Source: a virus. Taken from it: a stretch of 64,000 nucleotides of DNA. The notes under the pieces were generated by a model. It had not been told where the DNA came from. It searched no databases and was given only the letters and a program-made list of their open reading frames with translations. The stretch spans positions 1-64,000 of IMG/VR virus record IMGVR_UViG_3300009184_003751; one strand, written 5' to 3'. How positions within the stretch are numbered: position 1 is the stretch's first letter; each line of letters starts with the position of its first letter. Positions 1-42,485 of the stretch are shown piece by piece. The position numbers and the translations under genes are program-made.

Positions 1-1614
1 AACAGAACCAGTATTGATACCAAGACCCATACCGAAAGCAGGAATACCTTCGTTGGCGATTTCAGCATTGAAGCGATCCAAGTCGCCAAGCATTTCAAGA
101 GCTGTTTTAACTGCATGTTTAGCGTGATCCTTATCGTCTAGTGGTGCGTTCCAAAAAGCCATTTGAGCATCACCAATATATTTATCAAGCGTTCCTTCAT
201 TTTCAAGTATTTTCGCAGTCATCGCTGTCATGTAGCGATTCATAATCTCAGTAAGACCTTGAACGTTAGATCCATAATGCTCACTAATAGTAGTGAAACC
301 CCTAACATCAGTAAACATAATTGAAAGTTCTCTGGTTTCTCCGCCAAGGCGTAATAACTCCGGATTCTTTTGTAGTTTTTCTACAAGTGCTGGTGAAAGA
401 TAAGTTCCAAATTGTTTTTTAATTTGTTGTTTTAATCTGAATTCACGAGCGAAATTATTAAACGTCAATTGAAAAAATATTGCGATGCAACTAAGTAATA
501 TGTAGCTCGGATCCCACAGCTGCATATAATTTAAAAACATATAATACGAACCGCCGACAATGGAAACGACAAATGTTATCAAAACAGGTATGGTCCAAAA
601 GACCGAAGTACGAGGTATTAGAATTAGCAATGTGCCTAATAGCAATACTAGCAGCGCTGTCTCTAGTAGCTTACTCTCTGGTAAACGGCTTATAGAAGTT
701 CCGTCAATTAAAGTTTGAAGTGCTTGACCTTGCACTTCATGTGCCCACTTCTCCCCGATAGGTGTTGCAACTATACCACCAACACCTTCGATGGTCAATC
801 CTAAGATAACAATTTTCCCTTCGACGGTTTCTTTTGTAATTTCAGTTGCTTCAATCTTGCTGAAGTTGTTGTTCCATCCGAGCCAGATGCGACCGTTTTT
901 ATCTGTAGAGATGGCGGGGAACTGTGGGATGCGGACGGCTTCGACACCCGCTTCACCTGTTTTGATTTGGTAAGAGGGATCGCCAGCAGCTGTTCGTAAG
1001 GTTTCCAATACAAAAGAAGGATACAGTGTATCGCCAATCCGAGCCAACATAGGCATACGACGGACAACGCCATCGCGCTCGGGAGCAACTGCCAAAAGCC
1101 CAACACCATCCGCATTTCCTGCCAATGTTGGTAAAGGAGCCACAGCCCCCCTCCAAGTATACAACCATGGATCAGGAGCATTACCGATACTAGCAAACCC
1201 TCTGCGAGCAGCATCTGCTGGTCTTGATTGAGATGTAGGAGTTTGAGAAATGACAACGCTACCACCTCCTAAACTTTTTGCGAGCTCTTGGTCGCCACCA
1301 GCTCTATCTTTTTCAGAAAATAAAATAGGAACTGAAATAACTGCTGCACCTGAATCGCGGAGCGTATCAATCGTTTGAGCAATATCCCTTCGGTCAAATG
1401 GCCATTGACCAAATTTTTGAACTGACTTTTCGCCAAACTCAACGAAAACAACTTCATCCGACTGTTTCTTTTCTAGTGTTCCTATCAGATAGTCAAAGGT
1501 TTTCAGCTGTAGTGTTTCGATAGGACTTGGATTGATAACATACAATGTCAACAGGAGAAAGGCGCTGATAGCAGCTGCCCACGTACTTGTAAGATATTTG
1601 CCCAGATTTTCCAT
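1..1614 (-). CDS. CHASE2-domain adenylate/guanylate cyclase (C-terminus off window)
   Basis: The frame stays open from an ATG at 1614 to the window edge (538 codons), so the protein is partial at its C-terminus. Residues about 10-28 form a membrane segment, residues about 30-310 resemble the extracytoplasmic CHASE2 sensor, and three hydrophobic segments follow at about 315-395. A class III cyclase domain comes next. It keeps the first metal-binding Asp in IMFTDVRGFT (about residue 434), the second in DKYIGD (about 478) with the Lys that usually selects ATP, and the Asn of GINTGSV. The family makes cAMP (or cGMP) in response to an external signal. The gene starts 2 nt after the small curlin-like gene and ends the csg cassette. 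I infer cAMP signalling tied to the curli genes. The domain call is firm; the ligand is unknown. Confidence 0.9.
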   Translation of the reverse strand, partial: MENLGKYLTSTWAAAISAFLLLTLYVINPSPIETLQLKTFDYLIGTLEKKQSDEVVFVEFGEKSVQKFGQWPFDRRDIAQTIDTLRDSGAAVISVPILFSEKDRAGGDQELAKSLGGGSVVISQTPTSQSRPADAARRGFASIGNAPDPWLYTWRGAVAPLPTLAGNADGVGLLAVAPERDGVVRRMPMLARIGDTLYPSFVLETLRTAAGDPSYQIKTGEAGVEAVRIPQFPAISTDKNGRIWLGWNNNFSKIEATEITKETVEGKIVILGLTIEGVGGIVATPIGEKWAHEVQGQALQTLIDGTSISRLPESKLLETALLVLLLGTLLILIPRTSVFWTIPVLITFVVSIVGGSYYMFLNYMQLWDPSYILLSCIAIFFQLTFNNFAREFRLKQQIKKQFGTYLSPALVEKLQKNPELLRLGGETRELSIMFTDVRGFTTISEHYGSNVQGLTEIMNRYMTAMTAKILENEGTLDKYIGDAQMAFWNAPLDDKDHAKHAVKTALEMLGDLDRFNAEIANEGIPAFGMGLGINTGSV

Positions 1615-1616
1615 TT

Positions 1617-1880
1617 TCAGTACTGGTTGATGATATATGGACTATTAGGGCAGCTGCTACCACATACAACGCTAAGGCTAAAAGACTGTGCATTAATTCC
1701 AGACTGAGTGACTGAAACGCTAATCCCGTCGCCTGAAAGTTGCAAATTAGCAGAATGACCAGAAGCAGACTGAGTAATAATAACATTTTGATTTGCTCCT
1801 TGAATGTTCACGATTGCATTATTAATATTCTGCGAATAAGCAGCAGTAGTCATAAAAAGTAAAGCTAAAAGTGTTTTCAT
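1617..1880 (-). CDS. Small curlin-like secreted protein
   Basis: This 87-residue protein has a signal peptide (hydrophobic to about residue 15, TAAYSQ) and a mature part rich in N, Q, S, G and I. It carries curlin-type strand-turn repeats such as NIQGANQNVIITQ and DGISVSVTQSGIN. The C-terminus has two Cys (VVCGSSCPNSP), unusual for curlins and possibly a disulphide or cap. Curlin subunits are secreted through CsgG and polymerise as amyloid. The size and position suggest a minor or nucleator subunit (CsgB-like), which is inference. A good AGGG ribosome site precedes the ATG, which overlaps the FecR stop (TGATG). Confidence 0.7.
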   Translation of the reverse strand: MKTLLALLFMTTAAYSQNINNAIVNIQGANQNVIITQSASGHSANLQLSGDGISVSVTQSGINAQSFSLSVVCGSSCPNSPYIINQY

Positions 1881-2992
1881 CAGTTACCCTGCTTTATATT
1901 GATAGTTGTTGTTCCTCTACTATTTACAATTTGAGAAATAGTAATGTTTTCTTGGGTAATGTTTACGGTTAAACTGTTATTAGTAGATACCGTTACTTCT
2001 GCATATGCACCACTTACTTCGCGATATAATGTAACATAGTCATTTTCAACGAAATACTTCAATCCAGTTGCAGCATTATACTTAGGCAATAGAGCATTAT
2101 ATTCAGTTAATTCGTTACCTAGTAATTGAGAAGATGCTATATCCAAAAGGTTCATAAGGTAATCTGAATCGAGATAATTTCTATCTAACTTATTATACTC
2201 TGATAGGTAATTTTTACTTAACTCGGTATATATTAATAGGTCTTTTCCAAGTAGATCTTCATCAAGAAAATTGTAAGCTTTAGTTACTATATTTTCTTGA
2301 ACTGCCACCTGTTTCGGTGGGGTAACAATAATTAGGTTATTGATTTGATCTAAATTGAGATTAAGGATAGCTGACTTCGGTGTAGTCATTCTACTACCAA
2401 CTGCAACTGATTCGAATGGCTTTGTTAACCAAACCGTACCCATATCAGTCGTTACGGATATAGATCCTGTGATACAATCGCGTTCAACATTTCTCCACCC
2501 AACAGGGCAAGAAGGTAAAAGAATAACAGTACTGCGACCGATCTCGTCAACAGTTCCAGAAAAGTCAGTTCCTCTGACACCGATTGTAGCTGTGGGCGTC
2601 TCAACAACAACCTGTTGCGGATCAGATTTAGCGATTTGACCTGATGCATATTTAATAGTTCCCAAAGCCATCTTGATTCCAAGCTTACCAGTTTTCTTAG
2701 AATCATCGTAAACAAAGTTATCAATTACAAGTTTAGAATGCTCGGTTATTTGAACCTTAGTATCATCCTGAAATGTAATGCCAGCTTTACCATTAGCAGT
2801 TGTGATTGTATCTCTCATCTCAATGCCACTTTGAATGGCGCTTGAAATCACAGCTGTATTACGTTTAATTTCAGTTGGACCTGTTTGCTCTGTTACTTTA
2901 CCAACGTCAGCTTTAGTTGTGGTTGGATCTAATAGTAAGAGTGTTGCCAGAACCAGTGATTGTAGAAATGACCTTTGAATCAACGCCGCCAC
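1880..2992 (-). CDS. FecR-domain exported protein with curlin-like C-terminal tail
   Basis: The 370-residue protein starts with a signal peptide (LVLATLLLLDP...TTTKADVG) followed by a FecR-type beta domain at about residues 45-150 (GKAGITFQDDTKVQITEHS; TPTATIGVRGTDF). Charged helical sequence follows at about 225-310. The last 35 or so residues read like curlin strands (VNITQENITISQI...TINIKQGN). In bacteria such FecR proteins often sit beside CHASE2 cyclases. Here it lies between two curlin-like genes, so a fibre anchor or periplasmic sensor is plausible. The start is uncertain: GTG at 2992 overlaps the upstream gene by 80 nt, and a TTG at 2983 has a better-spaced AAGG. Confidence 0.8.
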   Translation of the reverse strand: MAALIQRSFLQSLVLATLLLLDPTTTKADVGKVTEQTGPTEIKRNTAVISSAIQSGIEMRDTITTANGKAGITFQDDTKVQITEHSKLVIDNFVYDDSKKTGKLGIKMALGTIKYASGQIAKSDPQQVVVETPTATIGVRGTDFSGTVDEIGRSTVILLPSCPVGWRNVERDCITGSISVTTDMGTVWLTKPFESVAVGSRMTTPKSAILNLNLDQINNLIIVTPPKQVAVQENIVTKAYNFLDEDLLGKDLLIYTELSKNYLSEYNKLDRNYLDSDYLMNLLDIASSQLLGNELTEYNALLPKYNAATGLKYFVENDYVTLYREVSGAYAEVTVSTNNSLTVNITQENITISQIVNSRGTTTINIKQGN

Positions 2993-3596
2993 CTTGCTTA
3001 ATATCTACCGTATTAGTAGCGCCCAGGATATTCACGTCTGCTTCATGTCCATTTATACCTGCTACACCAGTTTGTTTAATTGCTACTTCATTACCGCCGC
3101 CGCCATCGATAAGCACAGTGCTTTTTGCACCAGCAACTGATGATGAATCGTTCTGAATGTTTACTGTGTTATTATCTGTATTGATTGTAACTGTTGAAAG
3201 TGTAAAACCTTCGGCATTTTGAGTAACAGTATTGTTATCGCCTGTAATTGTATTAACTAGAGACGAACCTGAACAAGATCCGCCAGAACCACAGGAAATA
3301 CCTACTGCGTTGTTATCGCCAGTTACCAAAGAGTTTATAGTAACGCCATCACCAAAAACAACTACGTTGGCAACGTTAGTGTTACCTATTTGGTCGATTG
3401 TTACGATATTGTTTTGTCCGTTAAAAGTCGCTTTATTCGTTGCATTACCAATAGAATTAGTGTTACCAGTTTGGGTCATACTGATCGTAGAACCATCGCC
3501 TATCTGATCAACGTATACACTATTTCCTGCTGCGTTTGCATAATTTACCATAACCAAGAATGACAATAACGCCATCATTCTTGTTAATAGTTGCAT
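2913..3596 (-). CDS. Curlin-repeat amyloid subunit (CsgA-like)
   Basis: The 227-residue protein has a signal peptide (LLSFLVMVNYANAAG) and then many short Asn/Gln/Gly repeats typical of curlins: VDQIGDGSTISMTQTGNTN, VTIDQIGNTNVANVV, VDIKQGGGVD. It is longer than E. coli CsgA (about 150) and has a Cys/Gly/Ser-rich break at about residues 100-112. In curli systems this kind of subunit is exported through the CsgG pore and assembles as surface amyloid. The ATG directly abuts the csgG stop and has an AGGG ribosome site. Which of the two curlin-like proteins is major is inferred only from size. Confidence 0.8.
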   Translation of the reverse strand: MQLLTRMMALLSFLVMVNYANAAGNSVYVDQIGDGSTISMTQTGNTNSIGNATNKATFNGQNNIVTIDQIGNTNVANVVVFGDGVTINSLVTGDNNAVGISCGSGGSCSGSSLVNTITGDNNTVTQNAEGFTLSTVTINTDNNTVNIQNDSSSVAGAKSTVLIDGGGGNEVAIKQTGVAGINGHEADVNILGATNTVDIKQGGGVDSKVISTITGSGNTLTIRSNHN

Positions 3597-4421
3597 TTAT
3601 TTTCCCTTCTTAAAGCTCCATAAGTTTTTCTTAGCGCCTTCTTTAATCATCTCTGTAACTGCCGCCTCAATCGCGATTCTAACGGCATACGTTGTCGGTT
3701 CGTTGACAGAAGAACCAGCTTCGAACTCTACTGATTTAGTTCCAGCATCAACAAACTTAAATACGTTAGCATTAACACCTGTACTGAATACGGTTTTAGT
3801 AACGCCAGTAGATAAAAGTATCTCACCTGTATTTATAGAAATTAACCTTAACATTATAGTAACTTCGTCTTTTCTATACTCCTGAGTAGCTCCTACGCCA
3901 AGGAATCTAGCACCGATACCGCCAGTACCGATGTTAGAGTCATACCCGACGATACCACCATCAATCATAATACCAGCAACGATGAGAGGCGTCAAAGGCT
4001 TTGCCTGATCCTTCTCATAAAGCTCTCTCTGTGAACGAATAAGCTGTCTTTCTTTTACAAGGTTTTCAAGAGCAACACGTTCAACGGGCATAAACCATTG
4101 ACCCTTGCCAGCATCCTGTAAAGCTTTAATTAAAAGAACTTCGCCGCCCTGCGTTACTGCAGAACTGAACGAAGCATAGTTTTGCGATGGTTTTCTTTGG
4201 CCAGTTAAGTCAGCAAACTTATAAACAGCAATAGGAACCTTTGGCCCATCTACAGGAGCAAGGTTCGCTAATTCATTAAATCTCTTAGAAGTTTTAATTA
4301 CTTCTGGGGAATCAACTTGCGGCTCTACATGCCTTGCGCTTGTTATTTCTTTACCTGTGCAACTTGCAACAAGTAAGCCAGCAAATATAGCAATCCATAA
4401 TTTTTTTATCGTTTTTACCAT
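3597..4421 (-). CDS. csgG: CsgG outer-membrane curli secretion pore lipoprotein
   Basis: The 274-residue protein has a lipoprotein signal with lipobox LVASC (Cys21). The CsgG core is clear throughout: VAVYKFADLTGQRKPSQNY-type strand, FMPVERVALENLVKERQLIR, MIDGGIVGYDSNIGTGGIG and the transmembrane hairpin region. CsgG forms a nonameric pore in the outer membrane that secretes curlin subunits. At the E. coli constriction (Tyr51/Asn55/Phe56), Phe appears kept while Asn is replaced by Ser, so channel selectivity may differ. Length is close to E. coli CsgG (277). A GGGAG site lies 6 nt before the ATG, which overlaps the csgF stop by 7 nt. Confidence 0.95.
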   Translation of the reverse strand: MVKTIKKLWIAIFAGLLVASCTGKEITSARHVEPQVDSPEVIKTSKRFNELANLAPVDGPKVPIAVYKFADLTGQRKPSQNYASFSSAVTQGGEVLLIKALQDAGKGQWFMPVERVALENLVKERQLIRSQRELYEKDQAKPLTPLIVAGIMIDGGIVGYDSNIGTGGIGARFLGVGATQEYRKDEVTIMLRLISINTGEILLSTGVTKTVFSTGVNANVFKFVDAGTKSVEFEAGSSVNEPTTYAVRIAIEAAVTEMIKEGAKKNLWSFKKGK

Positions 4422-4852
4422 GCTAAACTCCCATACGGAACTACCACTTCAGTAACGCTACCAGCAGCATCTGTTATTCTTAATGTTATATTAGAACCAT
4501 CAGATGACCAAGCAACGTTATTAGATGCAATATCAAAAGACCCAGAAGTTTTGCCGTCGTCGCTAAAAAGCTGTTCGGCTATCTTCTGGGATAAGGTCGC
4601 ATAGACGCGACTTTCTAAATTGTTTAGAAACTTGGCTAGGTTTGTATTTTTAGCATCCGAAGCTGCTTTAGCTGCCTCGGCTTTTTTATCATCTAATAAC
4701 TTTTGTTTTCTTGTTTGTTCTAAATTTTCTATCGTAAGAACATGAGAAGAAAACCCTACGCCGTTAAAAGCAGGACTTCTAAACTGAAATTGAATTTCAT
4801 TAGCATATGAAACAGAAGAAAATAAACAAAATAATGCGACTAACTTTTTCAT
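4415..4852 (-). CDS. csgF: CsgF curli assembly factor
   Basis: The 145-residue protein has a signal peptide (cleavage after YA at about residue 17). The mature N-terminus NEIQFQFRSPAFNG matches the CsgF segment that inserts into the CsgG pore (E. coli TFQFRNPNFGG type). An Ala/Lys-rich helix follows at about 45-75, then a beta C-terminal domain. CsgF couples the pore to curlin nucleation at the cell surface. It is the first gene of the cassette, only 22 nt after the tRNA-Trp 3' end, with no obvious promoter between. I therefore infer transcription from the tRNA array. No csgE is visible in the window. Confidence 0.9.
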   Translation of the reverse strand: MKKLVALFCLFSSVSYANEIQFQFRSPAFNGVGFSSHVLTIENLEQTRKQKLLDDKKAEAAKAASDAKNTNLAKFLNNLESRVYATLSQKIAEQLFSDDGKTSGSFDIASNNVAWSSDGSNITLRITDAAGSVTEVVVPYGSLAW

Positions 4853-4874: not shown

Positions 4875-4948
4875 TGGCACCAGTGGAAGGAGTCGAACCC
4901 TCGCCTAGATTTTTGGAGAATCCCGTGCTACCGTAACACTTCACTGAT
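4875..4948 (-). tRNA. tRNA-Trp (CCA)
   Basis: A cloverleaf with a 7-bp acceptor (ATCAGTG/CACTGGT), anticodon loop CTCCAAA and a TTCGACT T-loop is visible, and CCA is encoded. It is the last tRNA before csgF. Confidence 0.9.
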
Positions 4949-6344: not shown

Positions 6345-6620
6345 TTAGTTACAAACTCGTTCTTGACGAATGCCGTAAGGAGTGCGGCGATCGACGATAT
6401 AGCAATGAGGACGACGAGGATAAACAGGAACATAACGTTCCTGATAAACTACTGGACGTCGCTCAACGTATACTGGACGAGGCTGAGACGCTTCATTAGC
6501 TACAACTGCACCAGCAGCAGCACCAACAACACCAGCAGCTACAAGTTGCTGTTCGCGTGCTGTACAGCCAGCCAATCCGAGAGCAATAAGTGGAACTAAT
6601 AGAATCTTACGCATTGTCAT
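6345..6620 (-). CDS. Small lipoprotein with glycine-zipper segment
   Basis: The 91-residue protein has a lipoprotein signal with lipobox LAGC (Cys19), then an Ala/Gly/Val stretch (AAGVVGAAAGAVVANEAS) like a glycine-zipper, and an Arg/Tyr/Pro-rich tail ending in C(X)13C-type spacing. It probably sits in the host envelope. It lies 8 nt downstream of the outer-membrane protein gene and should share its promoter. The function is unknown. An envelope change that excludes other phages is one possibility, and this is inference only. Confidence 0.75.
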   Translation of the reverse strand: MTMRKILLVPLIALGLAGCTAREQQLVAAGVVGAAAGAVVANEASQPRPVYVERRPVVYQERYVPVYPRRPHCYIVDRRTPYGIRQERVCN

Positions 6621-6628
6621 TCCCCAAA

Positions 6629-7156
6629 TTAGAACTTATAATTTACGCCAAGCGTGACAACGTTCTCATCGCGATCACGCTTACGGTCAGTGATATAACG
6701 GTAACGAACATCTGCTTCAATATCGCTTGTGATGTCATAACGGACACCAGCACCAGCAACGTAGATAGGCTCGCGCTTAAGATCAGACCAACGATAACCA
6801 ACGCCAGCAAGAGCATAAGGAACAACAGGAACGAAACCAATCTTATACTGACCGATTACGTTTGTAGTTGCTGTATGTGAACGAAGCTTTGATGATTCAT
6901 TCCAAGCATAATCATAATCAGCTTCTACACGAGCAAACTCTGAAAATTCCCAACCAGCGCGAGCATTAACGCGAAGAGCGTCGTACCAAGGATTGATATT
7001 TGTTACAGCCTTCGAACCCAAAGAACCGCCAACATAAAATTCAGCCGACTCTTGTGTAGGAGCAGGAGGTGCTGCTGGGGTCTTAGCAGGAATATCGCTA
7101 GCCGAAGCAGCGGTAGCAAAAATCAAACCAACAAATGTTACAACATACTTATTCAT
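6629..7156 (-). CDS. Outer-membrane beta-barrel protein (Omp25/RopB-like)
   Basis: The 175-residue protein has a signal peptide (ATAASASDIPAK) and a Pro/Ala linker, then FYVGGSLG and alternating amphipathic strands ending in NVVTLGVNYKF with a C-terminal Phe typical of porins. The layout matches small eight-strand barrels of alphaproteobacteria (Omp25/Omp31/RopB type). It has its own strong sigma70-like promoter (7187-7215) and lies between two tRNA blocks, so early expression is likely. A role in altering the host surface or blocking superinfection is inference. Confidence 0.8.
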   Translation of the reverse strand: MNKYVVTFVGLIFATAASASDIPAKTPAAPPAPTQESAEFYVGGSLGSKAVTNINPWYDALRVNARAGWEFSEFARVEADYDYAWNESSKLRSHTATTNVIGQYKIGFVPVVPYALAGVGYRWSDLKREPIYVAGAGVRYDITSDIEADVRYRYITDRKRDRDENVVTLGVNYKF

Positions 7157-15623: not shown

Positions 15624-16350
15624 CTAGATTATCAGCAACAGGAAACTCTTTTGTTTCAGTTTCGTGCTTACCAGGAATAGCAGCAAAGTAAACAGCATTC
15701 CTAGCTCTAAATGCAGCTCTAATTATACTATAACCAAAACGATTATACAACCAGTTTGAATAAGCACTTACATAATCATACTTATCATTAACTTGAGCCG
15801 AGAGAATTTCACCATACTTTTTGCCATGAATAGTCATAGGATAAGTTACTGATGTATCTGTCCAAACAACAAGCTTAGGATTAGATTCGAACATTTTATC
15901 GAAACCATTTTTCCACTTAGTTGTTATTTGAAGAATACTCGAGTTAGGCAAATCAAGAAACTTTAAATCGCTTTCGTCGTTTTTCTCAAGAGCCTTTTGA
16001 GCATCTTCAAGATCAACTGTAATAGGGCAATCCCATCTTGTGCTAAGAAGATGTTCTACGCACCCAGCATCAAGTTCGCCAACATTATGCTTAGAAATTT
16101 TAAACAGTTTTTGAATTAAAAGAGTTTGAACTCCGATACCAGCCATATATTCTCTAACAGAATAATTTTCATCTGGCTGTATAACATTTTGCAAAAGCCA
16201 CTTTGTAGCCCAGCACTTGGCGGCTACTAGATCCGTGTGCTGGGCTGCATAGTGAATATACGAACGATTGTGGAGGCTTACGCTATCTTCTGACTTAACA
16301 TCAATGTTAAACGGAAGGTCCCACTCATTACAAATTTTAGCAATTTTCAC
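15571..16350 (-). CDS. Rossmann-fold methyltransferase-like protein
   Basis: The 259-residue protein has a probable SAM-binding motif I (REYMAGIGVQTLLIQKLF, about residues 86-103), an acidic motif II (NVGELDAGCVEHL) and a VVWTDTSVTYPM segment in the place of motif IV. It lacks the Pro-Cys and ENV motifs of cytosine-C5 methyltransferases, so it is probably not the source of 5-methylcytosine. It is embedded in the modification cassette and may act on a base, an adduct or a small molecule. Fold is inferred; activity is unknown. Confidence 0.5.
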   Translation of the reverse strand: MKIAKICNEWDLPFNIDVKSEDSVSLHNRSYIHYAAQHTDLVAAKCWATKWLLQNVIQPDENYSVREYMAGIGVQTLLIQKLFKISKHNVGELDAGCVEHLLSTRWDCPITVDLEDAQKALEKNDESDLKFLDLPNSSILQITTKWKNGFDKMFESNPKLVVWTDTSVTYPMTIHGKKYGEILSAQVNDKYDYVSAYSNWLYNRFGYSIIRAAFRARNAVYFAAIPGKHETETKEFPVADNLDGFYFMGEEKSTLDNFF

Positions 16351-17669
16351 GCAAAGAAATCCTCAAGAGTAGATGTTTCATCCTTACCATAAGGATCCTT
16401 CATATCATGCTTATGAAGGTAATCATACCACTCTTGATCTTCCCACATTCCTGGGGAAACGCCATTCCAAAGAGGACGCCAAAACTTATGTTCCTTATTC
16501 ATGCGACGTTCGTCAACGTACTGCTTACGAAGCATTTCATAATCATATGACTTAAGTTCGAGCATCTTTTCGCGGAAATAACAAACCAACGAAATACGTT
16601 CTGCCTTATCGTGGTTTAAAACGATAGGAGTGTTACCGTGAATAATTTCATGATTGTTAACAAGAAGCAGATCGCCTGGACGAACGTTCACAGCAACGCG
16701 AACTTCTGGAAATACAAGATAGCCACCAGTATACTCGCCATCCCCAAGAACAAGAAGATTAGAAAGACCTTCATTCAAGTCACCAGCATCTCGGTGACAA
16801 GCAGTACGGAATGACTTATTAACTGTGATTGTAGTAAACACAGTTTCAGGAACAAGGAAACGAGGATCAATTTTATCGGCAGCTGCCTTCTGATTGCTCC
16901 AACGCCAGTTGAGAAGCTCCTTGAAACCTTTATTCAAAGTTTGCATGAAAGGATAGCAACCCTTGAACTTTTCAAAGTTCTTTTCAGTATAAGAAGTTGC
17001 GCGACCATAAGGGATACGAGGATAACGATCGTACCAACCAGCAACGCCAGACATAACAGACTTCGCATAGTTAGTTGTTGATGCCCACTTTTCAGCAACC
17101 ATCTTCGCTTCATCACGAACTGTTTCTTGTGGCTTGTTTGCGAGACCATCAACCCACTTATCGAACCAACCATGATACTCAGGATAAACCTTTTCAACTT
17201 CTGAACGAAGCCAAACTGTTCCGCGAGTTTCGTCGCTATCCTTAGGATTGCCGTTCTTATACTTCTCACGAATGCTTTCGATTGAAACGTCATCAATCAA
17301 ACGTGCGCCATCATCCATAAGGAAGTCAAGCACTTCATGCTGATAAGCAGTTACCCAATCACGACCACCACGACCTTCAACAGCTAGCATATCCCCACGA
17401 GGACCAGCGGCGATACCACGGTTTTGAGATTCAGTTGCTGCTTCGCGCAGAGCTTCATAAGCTGAATTTTGTTCTTCTTTACTAAAGTAATTTTTACGGA
17501 ACTTAAAAGCAATACGAAGTTCTTCGTTATCAGAATCGTCTAAGCTTGATGCAGCTAGAAAACAATCAGTATCTTCTTCAACCAGAATATCATAATGCGA
17601 CTCGTCAGGAAACTGACCGAGCATATCTTCTCTGTTAAACTTTTCTTTAGCTACAATTACCTTAACCAT
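16347..17669 (-). CDS. TET/JBP-like 2-oxoglutarate Fe(II) dioxygenase
   Basis: The 440-residue protein has a helical N-terminal half and a C-terminal double-stranded beta-helix of the TET/JBP type. Visible are the Fe ligands in TACHRDAGDLNEGL (His-X-Asp, about residue 291), GGYLVFPEVRVAVNVRPGDL, the distal His in NNHEIIHGNTP (about 343) and the 2OG-binding Arg in ERISLVCYF. TET/JBP enzymes oxidise the methyl group of thymine or 5-methylcytosine in DNA. It is the first gene of its operon, with promoter 17713-17741. The following genes suggest hydroxymethylated bases are further decorated. The oxygenase call is firm; the substrate is inferred. Confidence 0.85.
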   Translation of the reverse strand: MVKVIVAKEKFNREDMLGQFPDESHYDILVEEDTDCFLAASSLDDSDNEELRIAFKFRKNYFSKEEQNSAYEALREAATESQNRGIAAGPRGDMLAVEGRGGRDWVTAYQHEVLDFLMDDGARLIDDVSIESIREKYKNGNPKDSDETRGTVWLRSEVEKVYPEYHGWFDKWVDGLANKPQETVRDEAKMVAEKWASTTNYAKSVMSGVAGWYDRYPRIPYGRATSYTEKNFEKFKGCYPFMQTLNKGFKELLNWRWSNQKAAADKIDPRFLVPETVFTTITVNKSFRTACHRDAGDLNEGLSNLLVLGDGEYTGGYLVFPEVRVAVNVRPGDLLLVNNHEIIHGNTPIVLNHDKAERISLVCYFREKMLELKSYDYEMLRKQYVDERRMNKEHKFWRPLWNGVSPGMWEDQEWYDYLHKHDMKDPYGKDETSTLEDFFA

Positions 17670-25793: not shown

Positions 25794-25801
25794 TATTTAT
25801 A
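25794..25801 (-). promoter_or_regulatory. Late promoter TATAAATA
   Basis: An exact T4-type late box about 19 nt before the chosen start of the tube-like gene. It directly abuts the T-tract of the terminator at 25803. Confidence 0.7.
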
Positions 25802-39540: not shown

Positions 39541-39690
39541 TTATTCAGGTATCTCGACCCAATTTTTAATGGATTCGTCCCAATGATAAGTTTTACCGTC
39601 AGTAGGATATGGAACTGGGGGGTCCCATGCACCGTTTACGAAAATCCAGCTATCATATGGTTTTGGAACACTAGCCTGGGAAACTGCCAT
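39541..39690 (-). CDS. Small Trp/Pro-rich protein (49 aa)
   Basis: The ATG at 39690 opens MAVSQASVPKPYDSWIFVNG..., ending WDESIKNWVEIPE. Short proteins with this W-xxP plan occur beside T4-like fibre and neck genes in other marine phages, as I recall. A GGACC stretch and a late promoter (39725-39732) precede it. The function is unknown. Confidence 0.7.
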   Translation of the reverse strand: MAVSQASVPKPYDSWIFVNGAWDPPVPYPTDGKTYHWDESIKNWVEIPE

Positions 39691-39701
39691 TTTATGGTCC
39701 T

Positions 39702-39709
39702 TATAAATA
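39702..39709 (+). promoter_or_regulatory. Late promoter on plus strand
   Basis: TATAAATA points right towards the three-gene plus-strand island. It faces the minus-strand late box at 39725 with only 15 nt between. Confidence 0.65.
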
Positions 39710-39724
39710 TATATGATTTTTTAG

Positions 39725-39732
39725 TATTTATA
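39725..39732 (-). promoter_or_regulatory. Late promoter on minus strand
   Basis: TATAAATA points left towards the 49-aa gene and neck genes. Its transcript start should fall between the two opposed boxes. Confidence 0.65.
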
Positions 39733-39747
39733 AAACTAGGAAGCTGT

Positions 39748-40239
39748 ATGAATTTTGATTTTCTTTACAATAAACGTTTTTTACAAGCTCGAAACGCCAA
39801 AAAATCCTATTTTTTCGATTCTATTGATATACCTGTTTTATCTTGGGAAACAGTTTTAGAAGAACTCGAAACCCATATAACTGGTGGGCTAGATTACGAG
39901 AGCAAAAACAACTTAAGGTTTATTTTGTTCGAAATGCGTAATAAAACCGTTTCGCAGTTCGTAAAACAATACTCAAAACTAGACCCGAAATTACACTGTG
40001 GTGCTCATTGTTATGTAAACCTGATGTCTAAGTCGGGGGAAAACGGAAGGCATAAAGACCCAGCCGATGTTTTATTTTGGCAAGTTGTTGGTTCTACACA
40101 ATGGTCTATAGAAGACGATAATATAAAAACATATATACTAGAGCCAGGTAAAGCTGTATATGTTCCAGCTGGAATGTATCATAGCGTTACTTCATTATCC
40201 CCTCGTGCTGGCATTTCTTTTGGATTAGATTATGAGTAA
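39748..40239 (+). CDS. JmjC/cupin-like dioxygenase
   Basis: The 163-residue protein starts MNFDFLYNKRFLQARNAKK; AGGA lies 6 nt before the ATG at 39748, preferred over the upstream ATG at 39583. It has a cupin core with His-X-Asp (GRHKDPADVLFWQV), the metal-site His in PAGMYHSV, and a C-terminal strand (RAGISFGLDYE). JmjC-type cupins are Fe(II)/2OG hydroxylases. It is the first gene of the plus-strand island. The substrate is unknown. Confidence 0.7.
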   Translation: MNFDFLYNKRFLQARNAKKSYFFDSIDIPVLSWETVLEELETHITGGLDYESKNNLRFILFEMRNKTVSQFVKQYSKLDPKLHCGAHCYVNLMSKSGENGRHKDPADVLFWQVVGSTQWSIEDDNIKTYILEPGKAVYVPAGMYHSVTSLSPRAGISFGLDYE

Positions 40240-40747
40240 TATGTTTCATAAAATATTTACGCTCGAAAACCACAACGAGCTAAAACCTAAAATCATAAAA
40301 TCAATTAAAGAGTTTTCAGCGAAATCTTTAACCAACTCGACAGATTCTATAACTAGAACTGATTGGAATATACCTGAAAACGTTCCAAGACCGTATTTCG
40401 ATTATATCAAACCTTTTATCGAAAACGAGTATATGGATTATGTAAGATACCTTGGTGGAAAAAGCGCAGAGATTCATAACTTATGGTTTCAGCAATATTA
40501 TAAAACAGACACCCATACAACGCACTGCCATCCAGGTTCTCATTTCAGTAACATCTATTATGTAGAACTTCCTCATAAGTTTCAACGAACGGAGTTTTAT
40601 AATCCGTTTGAAAAAACATTTTTTCAATTTAATGCCGAAGAGGGAGATATATTAACTTTCCCTGCTTACTACGCTCACAGGTCGCCAGTAAATAATAGCG
40701 ACGATAGGAAAACTGTTGTTGTTTTCAATAGTTCGATAGAGGTTTAA
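40232..40747 (+). CDS. 2OG-Fe(II) oxygenase-like protein
   Basis: The 171-residue protein has THCHPGSHFSNIYYVELP, probably the first metal ligands. Later come EGDILTFPAYYAHRSPV with the distal His and RKTVVVFNSSI with a basic residue for 2OG. It overlaps the previous gene by 8 nt. This is a phage hydroxylase-like protein of unknown substrate. Confidence 0.7.
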   Translation: MSNMFHKIFTLENHNELKPKIIKSIKEFSAKSLTNSTDSITRTDWNIPENVPRPYFDYIKPFIENEYMDYVRYLGGKSAEIHNLWFQQYYKTDTHTTHCHPGSHFSNIYYVELPHKFQRTEFYNPFEKTFFQFNAEEGDILTFPAYYAHRSPVNNSDDRKTVVVFNSSIEV

Positions 40748-40748
40748 T

Positions 40749-41381
40749 ATGAACGTTGTTGGTCTATTTCCTACGCCATTTTATGTTGAAAATATAGAAC
40801 AAAAATTAGACATGAAAGAGATCGATCTATTAGTCGAGCTTTCAACTCAAAAAGAAAACCTTATAGAAAATATAGGAAACGGTAATTCTTTTTATAAAGA
40901 TACTAAAATATTGAAATCGTTACCAAACCTTAACTTAGAACTAACAAAAAAAGTTAATGAGTTTCTCTCAAACATTTTTGGCGAACATAATTCTAAATTA
41001 ACAATAACTCAATCTTGGTTGAATATAAACCCTACAGATACGTATCATCATATGCATTCCCATAAGAATAGCATAGTAAGTGGAGTTTTATATATCGAAT
41101 GCGATGAAAATAGCGGAGCTTTCAAATTATATAAACCAGAAGCTTTGTGTCGAAACGTAGGAGGGATTATAAACGAACATAATCCATTTACATATGATTT
41201 TGTAAAGTTCGTCCCTAATAAATTTGATCTTTATTTATTTCCAAGTAACTTGAAGCATTCGGTTGATACTAACAAATCAACTACAAGTAGACTTTCGCTA
41301 GCGTTTAATACGTTTTATATCGGAGAAGTTGATTCAGTATACGATTCTTTATCGCAGCTTACTATTACTGAATGTTCATAA
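40749..41381 (+). CDS. 2OG-Fe(II) oxygenase (Oxy_5-like)
   Basis: The 210-residue protein starts MNVVGLFPTPFYVENIE, a typical opening of the phage 2OG-FeII_Oxy_5 family. It contains SWLNINPTDTYHHMHSHKNSIVSGVLYI (His-X-His ligands), FDLYLFPSNLKHSVDTN (distal His) and SRLSLAFN. The family is common in marine T4-like phages with unknown targets. Its 3' end overlaps the next, convergent gene by 17 nt. Confidence 0.8.
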   Translation: MNVVGLFPTPFYVENIEQKLDMKEIDLLVELSTQKENLIENIGNGNSFYKDTKILKSLPNLNLELTKKVNEFLSNIFGEHNSKLTITQSWLNINPTDTYHHMHSHKNSIVSGVLYIECDENSGAFKLYKPEALCRNVGGIINEHNPFTYDFVKFVPNKFDLYLFPSNLKHSVDTNKSTTSRLSLAFNTFYIGEVDSVYDSLSQLTITECS

Positions 41382-41964
41382 ACTGACTTAAACAGTAACG
41401 ACCGTTTCCTTTGTAACCGCAGTATTCGGGATCCATTTTAACTTCCGTAACTTCGTGTTTTACATGAGAAGGAAACATAATCATCATATTGTTTTCTATT
41501 TCAACAGTTTCGTTATATTTCGTAAAAATAAGGTTACCACCAGTGAACTTTTTAGGCTCTTTAAACACCCATTGAAGCGCCGTTATAGAAGCTACATCTC
41601 TGTGTGATTTGTAATAACCACTATTTTCATAATAACTTAATAACGTAGAATCATTATTAATCATAAAAATGTTTTCATACATTTCATGTAAGTTGCTATA
41701 GAGTTTAAAAATATCTGCAGAAAATGTTTTTCTATTTATTTTTAAAATATTAGAAAAAGATCTATCGCAATAAACTTCGTCAATAAAAACACCATGATTG
41801 TGTTTCATATCAATTTTCTGTTGACCAGTTTTTTGAGGAGGTTGTAGCTTATTTTGGTAAGTTAAGAAATCTAACTCTTGCCATATTAATTTAAGCTCTT
41901 CTTCTGTATAATAATTTTTAATTTTCAAATATGGAAATGATTTTTTATCGTTACATACGTCCAT
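41365..41964 (-). CDS. 2OG-Fe(II) oxygenase (prolyl-hydroxylase-like)
   Basis: The 199-residue protein has the P4H-type core: YYKSHRDVASITALQWV (His-X-Asp), FTGGNLIF, MMIMFPSHVKHEVTEV (distal His) and NGRYCLSQF (2OG Arg). It lies tail to tail with the plus-strand oxygenase and next to fibre genes. Hydroxylation of fibre or host proteins is possible but not shown. Confidence 0.8.
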   Translation of the reverse strand: MDVCNDKKSFPYLKIKNYYTEEELKLIWQELDFLTYQNKLQPPQKTGQQKIDMKHNHGVFIDEVYCDRSFSNILKINRKTFSADIFKLYSNLHEMYENIFMINNDSTLLSYYENSGYYKSHRDVASITALQWVFKEPKKFTGGNLIFTKYNETVEIENNMMIMFPSHVKHEVTEVKMDPEYCGYKGNGRYCLSQFMNIQ

Positions 41965-42485
41965 TAAATAATTTCCTTCAACTTAAACGCAATCGTAACT
42001 CTAAGTTCAGGGCAGTATCTAGTAGGTTCTAAACCAACATGATTCAATGTACTATTAAACAATATACCTGTATTTTTAATAGGAATGATTGTATCTATTT
42101 GGCCATTTGTTTGTACAATTTGAGTTCCACCTCCCCAATTTAAATTCCAAATCGGGTTAGCATAATAAACAAACGTATAATATAGTTCTGGAGCATAATC
42201 TGTATGTACGTCTGTATGTAGATTTCCAGGCTGGCCATATGTTTGGCCATTTGCATAAACTCTTTTTATTTCAAATTTTTTATCAGATATTGTTTCGATA
42301 ATTTTTAAAAAGTCGTTTTTAAAAAAAAGATCGTTTTCTAAATCCATATACCAAAATTTATAATCGGATGGGTTTTTGCTATAACCGATATATTTCCACT
42401 GACCGTTTAAAATTGTTTTTTCTAAAACGTAATTATATTGTTCGTCATTTAATACATTATAAAAGTATTTCACATTAAACTCCAT
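41964..42485 (-). CDS. 2OG-Fe(II) oxygenase (prolyl-hydroxylase-like)
   Basis: The 173-residue protein carries NLHTDVHTDYAPELYYTFVYY (His-X-Asp), NLNWGGGTQIV, GILFNSTLNHVGLEPT (distal His) and ELRVTIAFKL (2OG-binding Arg). Its fold matches 2OG hydroxylases acting on peptides or small molecules. It precedes the 41365-41964 gene with overlapping stop/start and follows a glycine-rich fibre gene. Confidence 0.8.
   Translation of the reverse strand: MEFNVKYFYNVLNDEQYNYVLEKTILNGQWKYIGYSKNPSDYKFWYMDLENDLFFKNDFLKIIETISDKKFEIKRVYANGQTYGQPGNLHTDVHTDYAPELYYTFVYYANPIWNLNWGGGTQIVQTNGQIDTIIPIKNTGILFNSTLNHVGLEPTRYCPELRVTIAFKLKEII

Follow-up and report, generated by a model that had tools for sequence, protein, structure and literature searches.

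A curli operon at the edge of a T4-like phage contig

Why should a phage carry the parts of a curli (type VIII) exporter together with a FecR-domain protein and a cyclase? The question is raised by one end of the window, a 64,000-nucleotide stretch of viral DNA comprising bases 1-64000 of the 86,472-bp IMG/VR record IMGVR_UViG_3300009184_003751 (base 1 of the window is the record start), where six open reading frames (ORFs) run along the minus strand from 4852 to 1 in the order csgF-csgG-curlin-FecR-curlin-CHASE2/adenylate cyclase. We propose that this operon is a phage-carried minimal curli exporter in which a FecR hybrid, ending in a curlin-like tail, would link the fibre to the cyclase, a function read from the genes and one about which our confidence and our doubt are evenly matched. 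The FecR tail is the part that we consider worth following. The features of the operon, all on the minus strand, are as follows (aa, amino acids):

4415..4852, minus: csgF, 145 aa, with a signal-peptide-like N-terminus (by inspection)
4760..4801, minus: mature CsgF N-terminus NEIQFQFRSPAFNG, the equivalent of E. coli GTMTFQFRNPNFGG, aligned to PDB 6l7a CsgF and translated E. coli CsgF
3597..4421, minus: csgG, outer-membrane pore lipoprotein, 274 aa, lipobox LVAS/C (slash, cleavage site)
2913..3596, minus: curlin-1, 227 aa, with repeated Q-x-G-x-x-N units
1880..2992, minus: FecR-domain protein, 370 aa, GTG start, Pfam FecR E=3.9e-11, phrog_37870
about 2809-2525, minus: FecR domain (Pfam), residues 62-156 of that protein
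1883..1972, minus: curlin/CsgB-like C-terminal tail of the FecR protein (...NITQENITISQIVNSRGTTTINIKQGN), strand-Gln pattern
1617..1880, minus: curlin-2, 87 aa, with a conserved Cys pair and terminal NQY
1..1614, minus: CHASE2/class III adenylate cyclase, first 538 aa, cut by the contig start, Pfam CHASE2 1.6e-39 and Guanylate_cyc 1.5e-8

Neighbouring genes overlap by 7 nucleotides (nt) at csgF/csgG, 80 nt at curlin-1/FecR and 1 nt at FecR/curlin-2, and a gap of 2 nt separates curlin-2 from the cyclase. An earlier note on this DNA had described just such a tightly overlapped six-gene operon within a T4-like genome, and both points are borne out, the operon by the ORF positions and by Pfam matches to five of the six proteins (the exception is curlin-2, whose assignment is the weaker one), the genome by its gp44 clamp loader and gp20 portal. 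The cyclase that it named is confirmed in identity by the two Pfam domains and turns out not to be a complete gene: the contig begins at base 1, and the protein is therefore cut at residue 538, compared with a length of 667-706 aa in most relative loci. Motifs with both metal Asp residues and the substrate Lys are present in the window, and the Asn/Arg motif (GDSVNLASRLE) is visible only in full-length relatives, since the contig ends first; as read from the sequences, the catalytic motifs of the cyclase are intact in the relatives.

The cassette is viral, widespread and under purifying selection

The gene set is already known, and the operon described here is a further member, from a clade with about 45% CsgG identity to the cultured phages. 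Pelagimyophage csgF and csgG genes were reported in PMC7029224, a CsgGF pore was discussed for the Methylophilales phage Melnitz, in which csgA/csgB were said to be missing (PMC9004378), and the whole set including FecR, the second curlin and the adenylate cyclase was described in SAR11 podophages and myophages (Wittmers et al. 2022; PMC9599517). The earlier note spoke of csgG/csgF-like genes in some SAR11 myophages and took the additional curlin, the FecR protein and the cyclase to be unusual. The latter view is not supported, because all three are published in PMC9599517 and present in HTVC008M and Melnitz; the roles that it offered, namely clumping, surface masking and a pore, have all been proposed before (PMC7029224; PMC9004378; PMC9599517). 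With tblastn, both CsgG and the cyclase gave matches at 42-48% identity in HTVC008M, a phage of Pelagibacter, and in four Melnitz isolates. All six genes recur in HTVC008M and Melnitz with their order, F-G-curlin-FecR-curlin-cyclase, unchanged, but CsgG here is only 44-47% identical to theirs and the second curlin has 87 aa compared with 341-441 aa. The pelagiphage podophage form has a histidine kinase upstream of csgF; none was seen just upstream here, where a transfer RNA (tRNA) array and lipoprotein and beta-barrel genes lie instead, so this operon is not of the podophage form.

PHROGs families already cover the cyclase, FecR, CsgG and CsgF (E=1e-45 to 1e-181). A scan for close relatives returned 35 viral loci with identical gene order, and a profile scan found at least 591 viral stretches encoding a CsgG of the cassette type, the best 80 of which have F-G-curlin-FecR, usually followed by a curlin and the cyclase where the contig is long enough. 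Several cassette-bearing contigs exceed 100 kb; one viral contig (L173) has 306,714 bases and is possibly a jumbo phage. Purifying selection acts on all six genes, with median ratios of nonsynonymous to synonymous substitution rates (dN/dS) of 0.122 for CsgG, 0.130 for CsgF, 0.136 for the cyclase, 0.145 for FecR, 0.235 for curlin-1 and 0.257 for curlin-2. That the cassette touches a contig end would suit an assembly chimera or decaying bacterial cargo, an explanation that we regard as extremely improbable and refuted in practice: the cassette recurs in dozens of separate viral contigs and in two sequenced phage isolates, with intact frames and dN/dS far below 1. The other viral contigs and the purifying selection thus uphold the claim that the module is truly viral.

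The FecR protein ends in a constrained, curlin-like tail

By inspection, the FecR protein consists of a signal-like N-terminal segment followed by the FecR domain, with no cytoplasmic or DNA-binding part; Pfam recognizes the FecR domain only, and the nearest NCBIfam families, weakly matched, are the surface proteins Lsa33/LipL45. Its neighbours are csg genes, and its arrangement is not the FecIRA-type anti-sigma layout of a cytoplasmic N-terminal part, one membrane helix, a sigma partner and a TonB receptor. The C-terminal tail shows a strand-Gln pattern that we liken to the end of E. coli CsgB (...TAIVVQRQSQMAIRVTQR). This ending, under a pattern defined only after the sequences had been seen, occurs in 82 of 83 full-length phage FecR proteins versus 5 of 725 control ORFs. 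Relative to the synonymous rate (dS) of the gene, the nonsynonymous rate is 0.072 in the tail, 0.077 in the FecR domain and 0.142 in the linker; the tail is constrained as tightly as the FecR domain and more than the linker.

A strand-Gln ending is missing from every bacterial FecR protein checked that is not phage-like, partners of CHASE2 cyclases included, and the bacterial ends are Pro/Glu- or Gly-rich. Among 385 alphaproteobacterial genomes, 140 encode FecR domains, and in the matches listed from these genomes no FecR extends beyond profile position 238 of 371. We did not find the curlin-like tail described in PMC7029224, PMC9004378 or PMC9599517, although it is common to HTVC008M and Melnitz, and it casts doubt on the description of FecR as an iron regulator in the literature.

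CsgF retains the motif that in E. coli seats it in CsgG

CsgG is matched by Pfam CsgG (E=1.5e-53) and, using the phage profile, by CsgG in the PDB (E=2e-64), and Cys21 of its lipobox is invariant. A relative of CsgG with 37% identity is encoded by GenBank OR851715.1 (1,499 bp, named Salmonella phage S.Kent 1-2-1), which is possibly bacterial DNA. CsgF is matched by Pfam CsgF (E=1.6e-17) and by NCBIfam CsgF over residues 2-40 (E=0.0014), and the HTVC008M homologue of the csgF product carries a CsgF annotation. In E. coli, the N-terminal segment of CsgF sits in the CsgG barrel, as seen in CsgG:CsgF structures such as 6l7a. The corresponding motif FxF[KR][SN]P[AS]FxG recurs across the phage CsgF proteins examined, and by this alignment the N-terminus retains the CsgG-plugging motif, a feature that we did not find described in PMC7029224, PMC9004378 or PMC9599517. 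Its conservation favours an ordinary CsgG:CsgF complex over a CsgF that is inverted or acts independently, as was suggested for Melnitz.

Curlin-1 passes the cut-off of Pfam Curlin_rpt (E=2.6e-6), falls below that of NCBIfam CsgA (E=3.6e-4) and yields a repetitive, all-beta (solenoid-like) AlphaFold2 model with a mean predicted local distance difference test score (pLDDT) of 85.7. Curlin-2 has no Pfam match; it is called a curlin because of a weak NCBIfam CsgB match (E=0.0035, far below cut-off) and because its operon position is held by long curlin-repeat proteins in relatives (341-441 aa in Melnitz and HTVC008M). Phage curlin-1 proteins have an invariant cysteine pair (residues 102 and 108) and curlin-2 has its conserved pair near the C-terminus; mature E. 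coli CsgA and CsgB are without cysteine.

The E. coli K-12 system, csgDEFG-csgBAC, shares with the phage operon homologues of CsgG and CsgF and the curlin repeats. The CsgB-like terminal repeat lies on FecR in the phage, and the terminal QY of CsgA (...HQY) is found on curlin-2. In contrast to E. coli, the phage is without CsgE, has one operon in place of two divergent ones and has added FecR and the cyclase.

The bacterial loci examined carry the two halves separately

According to PMC9599517, FecR and cyclase genes are not part of bacterial curli operons. Three alphaproteobacterial csg loci (about 18-20 kb read) have csgF, csgG and curlin-like genes and neither FecR nor cyclase; the clearly bacterial csgF-csgG loci (L047, L108-L110) have neither nearby. 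Conversely, six extended Rhodobacteraceae loci with FecR and cyclase have no csg genes, and in most of the shorter loci from Rhodobacteraceae, too, a cyclase gene adjoins FecR. The Rhodobacteraceae pairs and the Sinorhizobium meliloti pair cyaD1/smc02177 resemble the phage in placing an exported FecR protein beside a CHASE2 class III cyclase, an adjacency reported for S. meliloti (PMC5498481), and differ from it in that their FecR ends are not curlin-like and in the lack of csg genes in the six extended loci. A related arrangement is the Burkholderia contaminans BiofilmReg operon, a FecR-CHASE2 kinase operon that controls biofilm (PMC5192318): an exported FecR-domain protein is again encoded with a CHASE2 sensor, but the CHASE2 domain there belongs to a histidine kinase, and a fusion joins FecR to LysM.

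In our searches the cassette was found in many phages and the whole set in no clearly bacterial locus examined, nor did the bacterial samples examined contain an operon joining curli, FecR and CHASE2-cyclase parts. The separate csg and FecR-cyclase loci in bacteria fit a joining of two units on the phage side, and, judged from a small bacterial sample, its two probable sources are a bacterial unit of csgF-csgG-curlin and another, also bacterial, of FecR-CHASE2-cyclase.

When the complete cassette was sought on bacterial chromosomes, whole or partial cassettes turned up only on short contigs of metagenome-assembled genomes (MAGs), L041-L046 and L051, which have viral-looking content or are similar to the phage versions. 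Six of them (L041, L042, L044, L045, L046 and L051) carry phage-type cassettes under the labels Rhodobacteraceae, Flavobacteriaceae or Pelagibacter; these MAG contigs look like phage contamination and would be a trap for calling such genes bacterial.

A predicted fibre exporter coupled to a cyclase

We propose that an infected cell would export the curlins through CsgG:CsgF to form a surface fibre, and that the FecR hybrid would be an exported partner of this fibre (a nucleator, an anchor or a gauge of assembly) in contact with curlin, and not an iron regulator. As in the bacterial FecR-CHASE2 pairs, the periplasmic CHASE2 domain would contact and read the FecR domain, such that fibre export would alter cyclic AMP (cAMP) in the infected cell. 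More specifically, and only tentatively, since we think it clearly less probable than the exporter as a whole, the phage FecR may be a CsgB-like nucleator or anchor fused to a FecR sensor domain, making a self-monitoring amyloid exporter in which CHASE2 senses fibre assembly in the periplasm and the output is cAMP. The least certain step is the benefit to the phage, in that the fibre might aggregate nearby hosts or mask the cell against other phages. SAR11 is reported to have no curli system and the OM43 host strain no curli genes (PMC7029224; PMC9004378), and with the module on hundreds of viral contigs, infected cells of such hosts would gain a wholly new surface property. The FecR tail, the CsgF plug and the evidence for a joining of two units turn previously vague roles into specific, testable ones, namely nucleation, CHASE2 binding and cAMP output.

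Several observations weigh against this proposal. Cultures infected with Melnitz showed no clumping (PMC9004378). A Pfam scan of ten FecR members found curlin repeats in none, leaving the tail uncalled as curlin, and AlphaFold gives a poor model for the FecR protein (pLDDT 55), too weak to establish the fold of the tail; for curlin-1, Foldseek matched no PDB structure at E<=0.001. CsgE was not found in the contig or in 10 other phage records (the E. coli control was positive), although CsgE is dispensable in E. coli according to PMC7029224. A cAMP receptor domain was found neither in the contig nor in the 10 other phage records, so the cAMP would either act on a target supplied by the host or have none; the domain is present in one of two Pelagibacter MAGs, within proteins of about 1000 aa. 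Finally, the S. meliloti FecR gene limits secondary infection yet is dispensable for signal perception (PMC5498481).

The missing CsgE gate in these 11 phage records, together with the strongest conservation falling on the pore and CsgF, would also suit a pore-only function, proposed from AlphaFold models for Melnitz (PMC9004378), in which CsgG, with or without CsgF, forms a channel in the outer membrane that serves uptake or sets the time of lysis (as a pinholin or inverted secretin) and the curlins are secondary. We consider this unlikely, as the curlins and FecR are under purifying selection and keep their places in every contig of sufficient length, and the CsgF N-terminus that seats in the E. 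coli CsgG barrel is conserved. PMC9599517 suggests that FecR is an iron-dependent regulator and that the cyclase regulates transcription of the curli genes, which would agree with the domain names and with the enteric CsgD/cAMP regulation cited there; against it stand the secretion signal with which FecR, by inspection, begins, its want of a cytoplasmic or DNA-binding part, its curlin-like tail and weak matches to surface proteins, and the lack of a cAMP receptor domain in the phage records, which together leave this explanation equally doubtful. No more probable, in our estimate, is that the FecR hybrid and the cyclase work independently of the fibre, for instance through raised cAMP that slows or redirects host metabolism: standalone FecR-CHASE2-cyclase pairs are common in alphaproteobacteria and the catalytic motifs are intact, but in phages FecR and the cyclase always lie within the csg operon, and FecR has gained its curlin-like tail. 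The fibre exporter with a FecR hybrid thus remains the reading that we prefer.

Genomic setting of the operon

A tRNA array lies directly upstream of csgF, its last gene ending 22 nt before it; this gene is context and stands outside the module:

4875..4948, minus: tRNA-Trp (ARAGORN)

Rfam found only tRNAs in the window, and riboswitch or transfer-messenger RNA (tmRNA) control as in Melnitz was not found there. Downstream of the cassette, two relatives, L023 (15000-15671) and L028 (19234-19914), have a phage tmRNA gene and, after it, tRNA-Gln. The exact T4-type late promoter TATAAATA is not present before csgF, and its total count in the window shows no excess over chance; the sequence gives no indication that the cassette is expressed late. 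The same motif occurs within about 45 nt before structural genes at 25794, 27325, 28446, 35106 and 58215 (-).

The tRNA array also encloses, at 6345-7156 (-), genes for a small lipoprotein and for an OmpA-like beta-barrel protein of the outer membrane (Pfam OMP_b-brl E=1e-13). Distant relatives are encoded by rhizobial jumbo phages, and in one relative locus (L006) a homologue lies next to tRNAs. Elsewhere in the window, a Tet/JBP-type 2-oxoglutarate (2OG)-Fe(II) oxygenase gene at 16347-17669 (-) (E=9.6e-25) suggests modified DNA bases, and five JmjC/cupin or 2OG-Fe(II) oxygenase-like genes lie on both strands at 39583-42485, between baseplate and tail-fibre-like genes.

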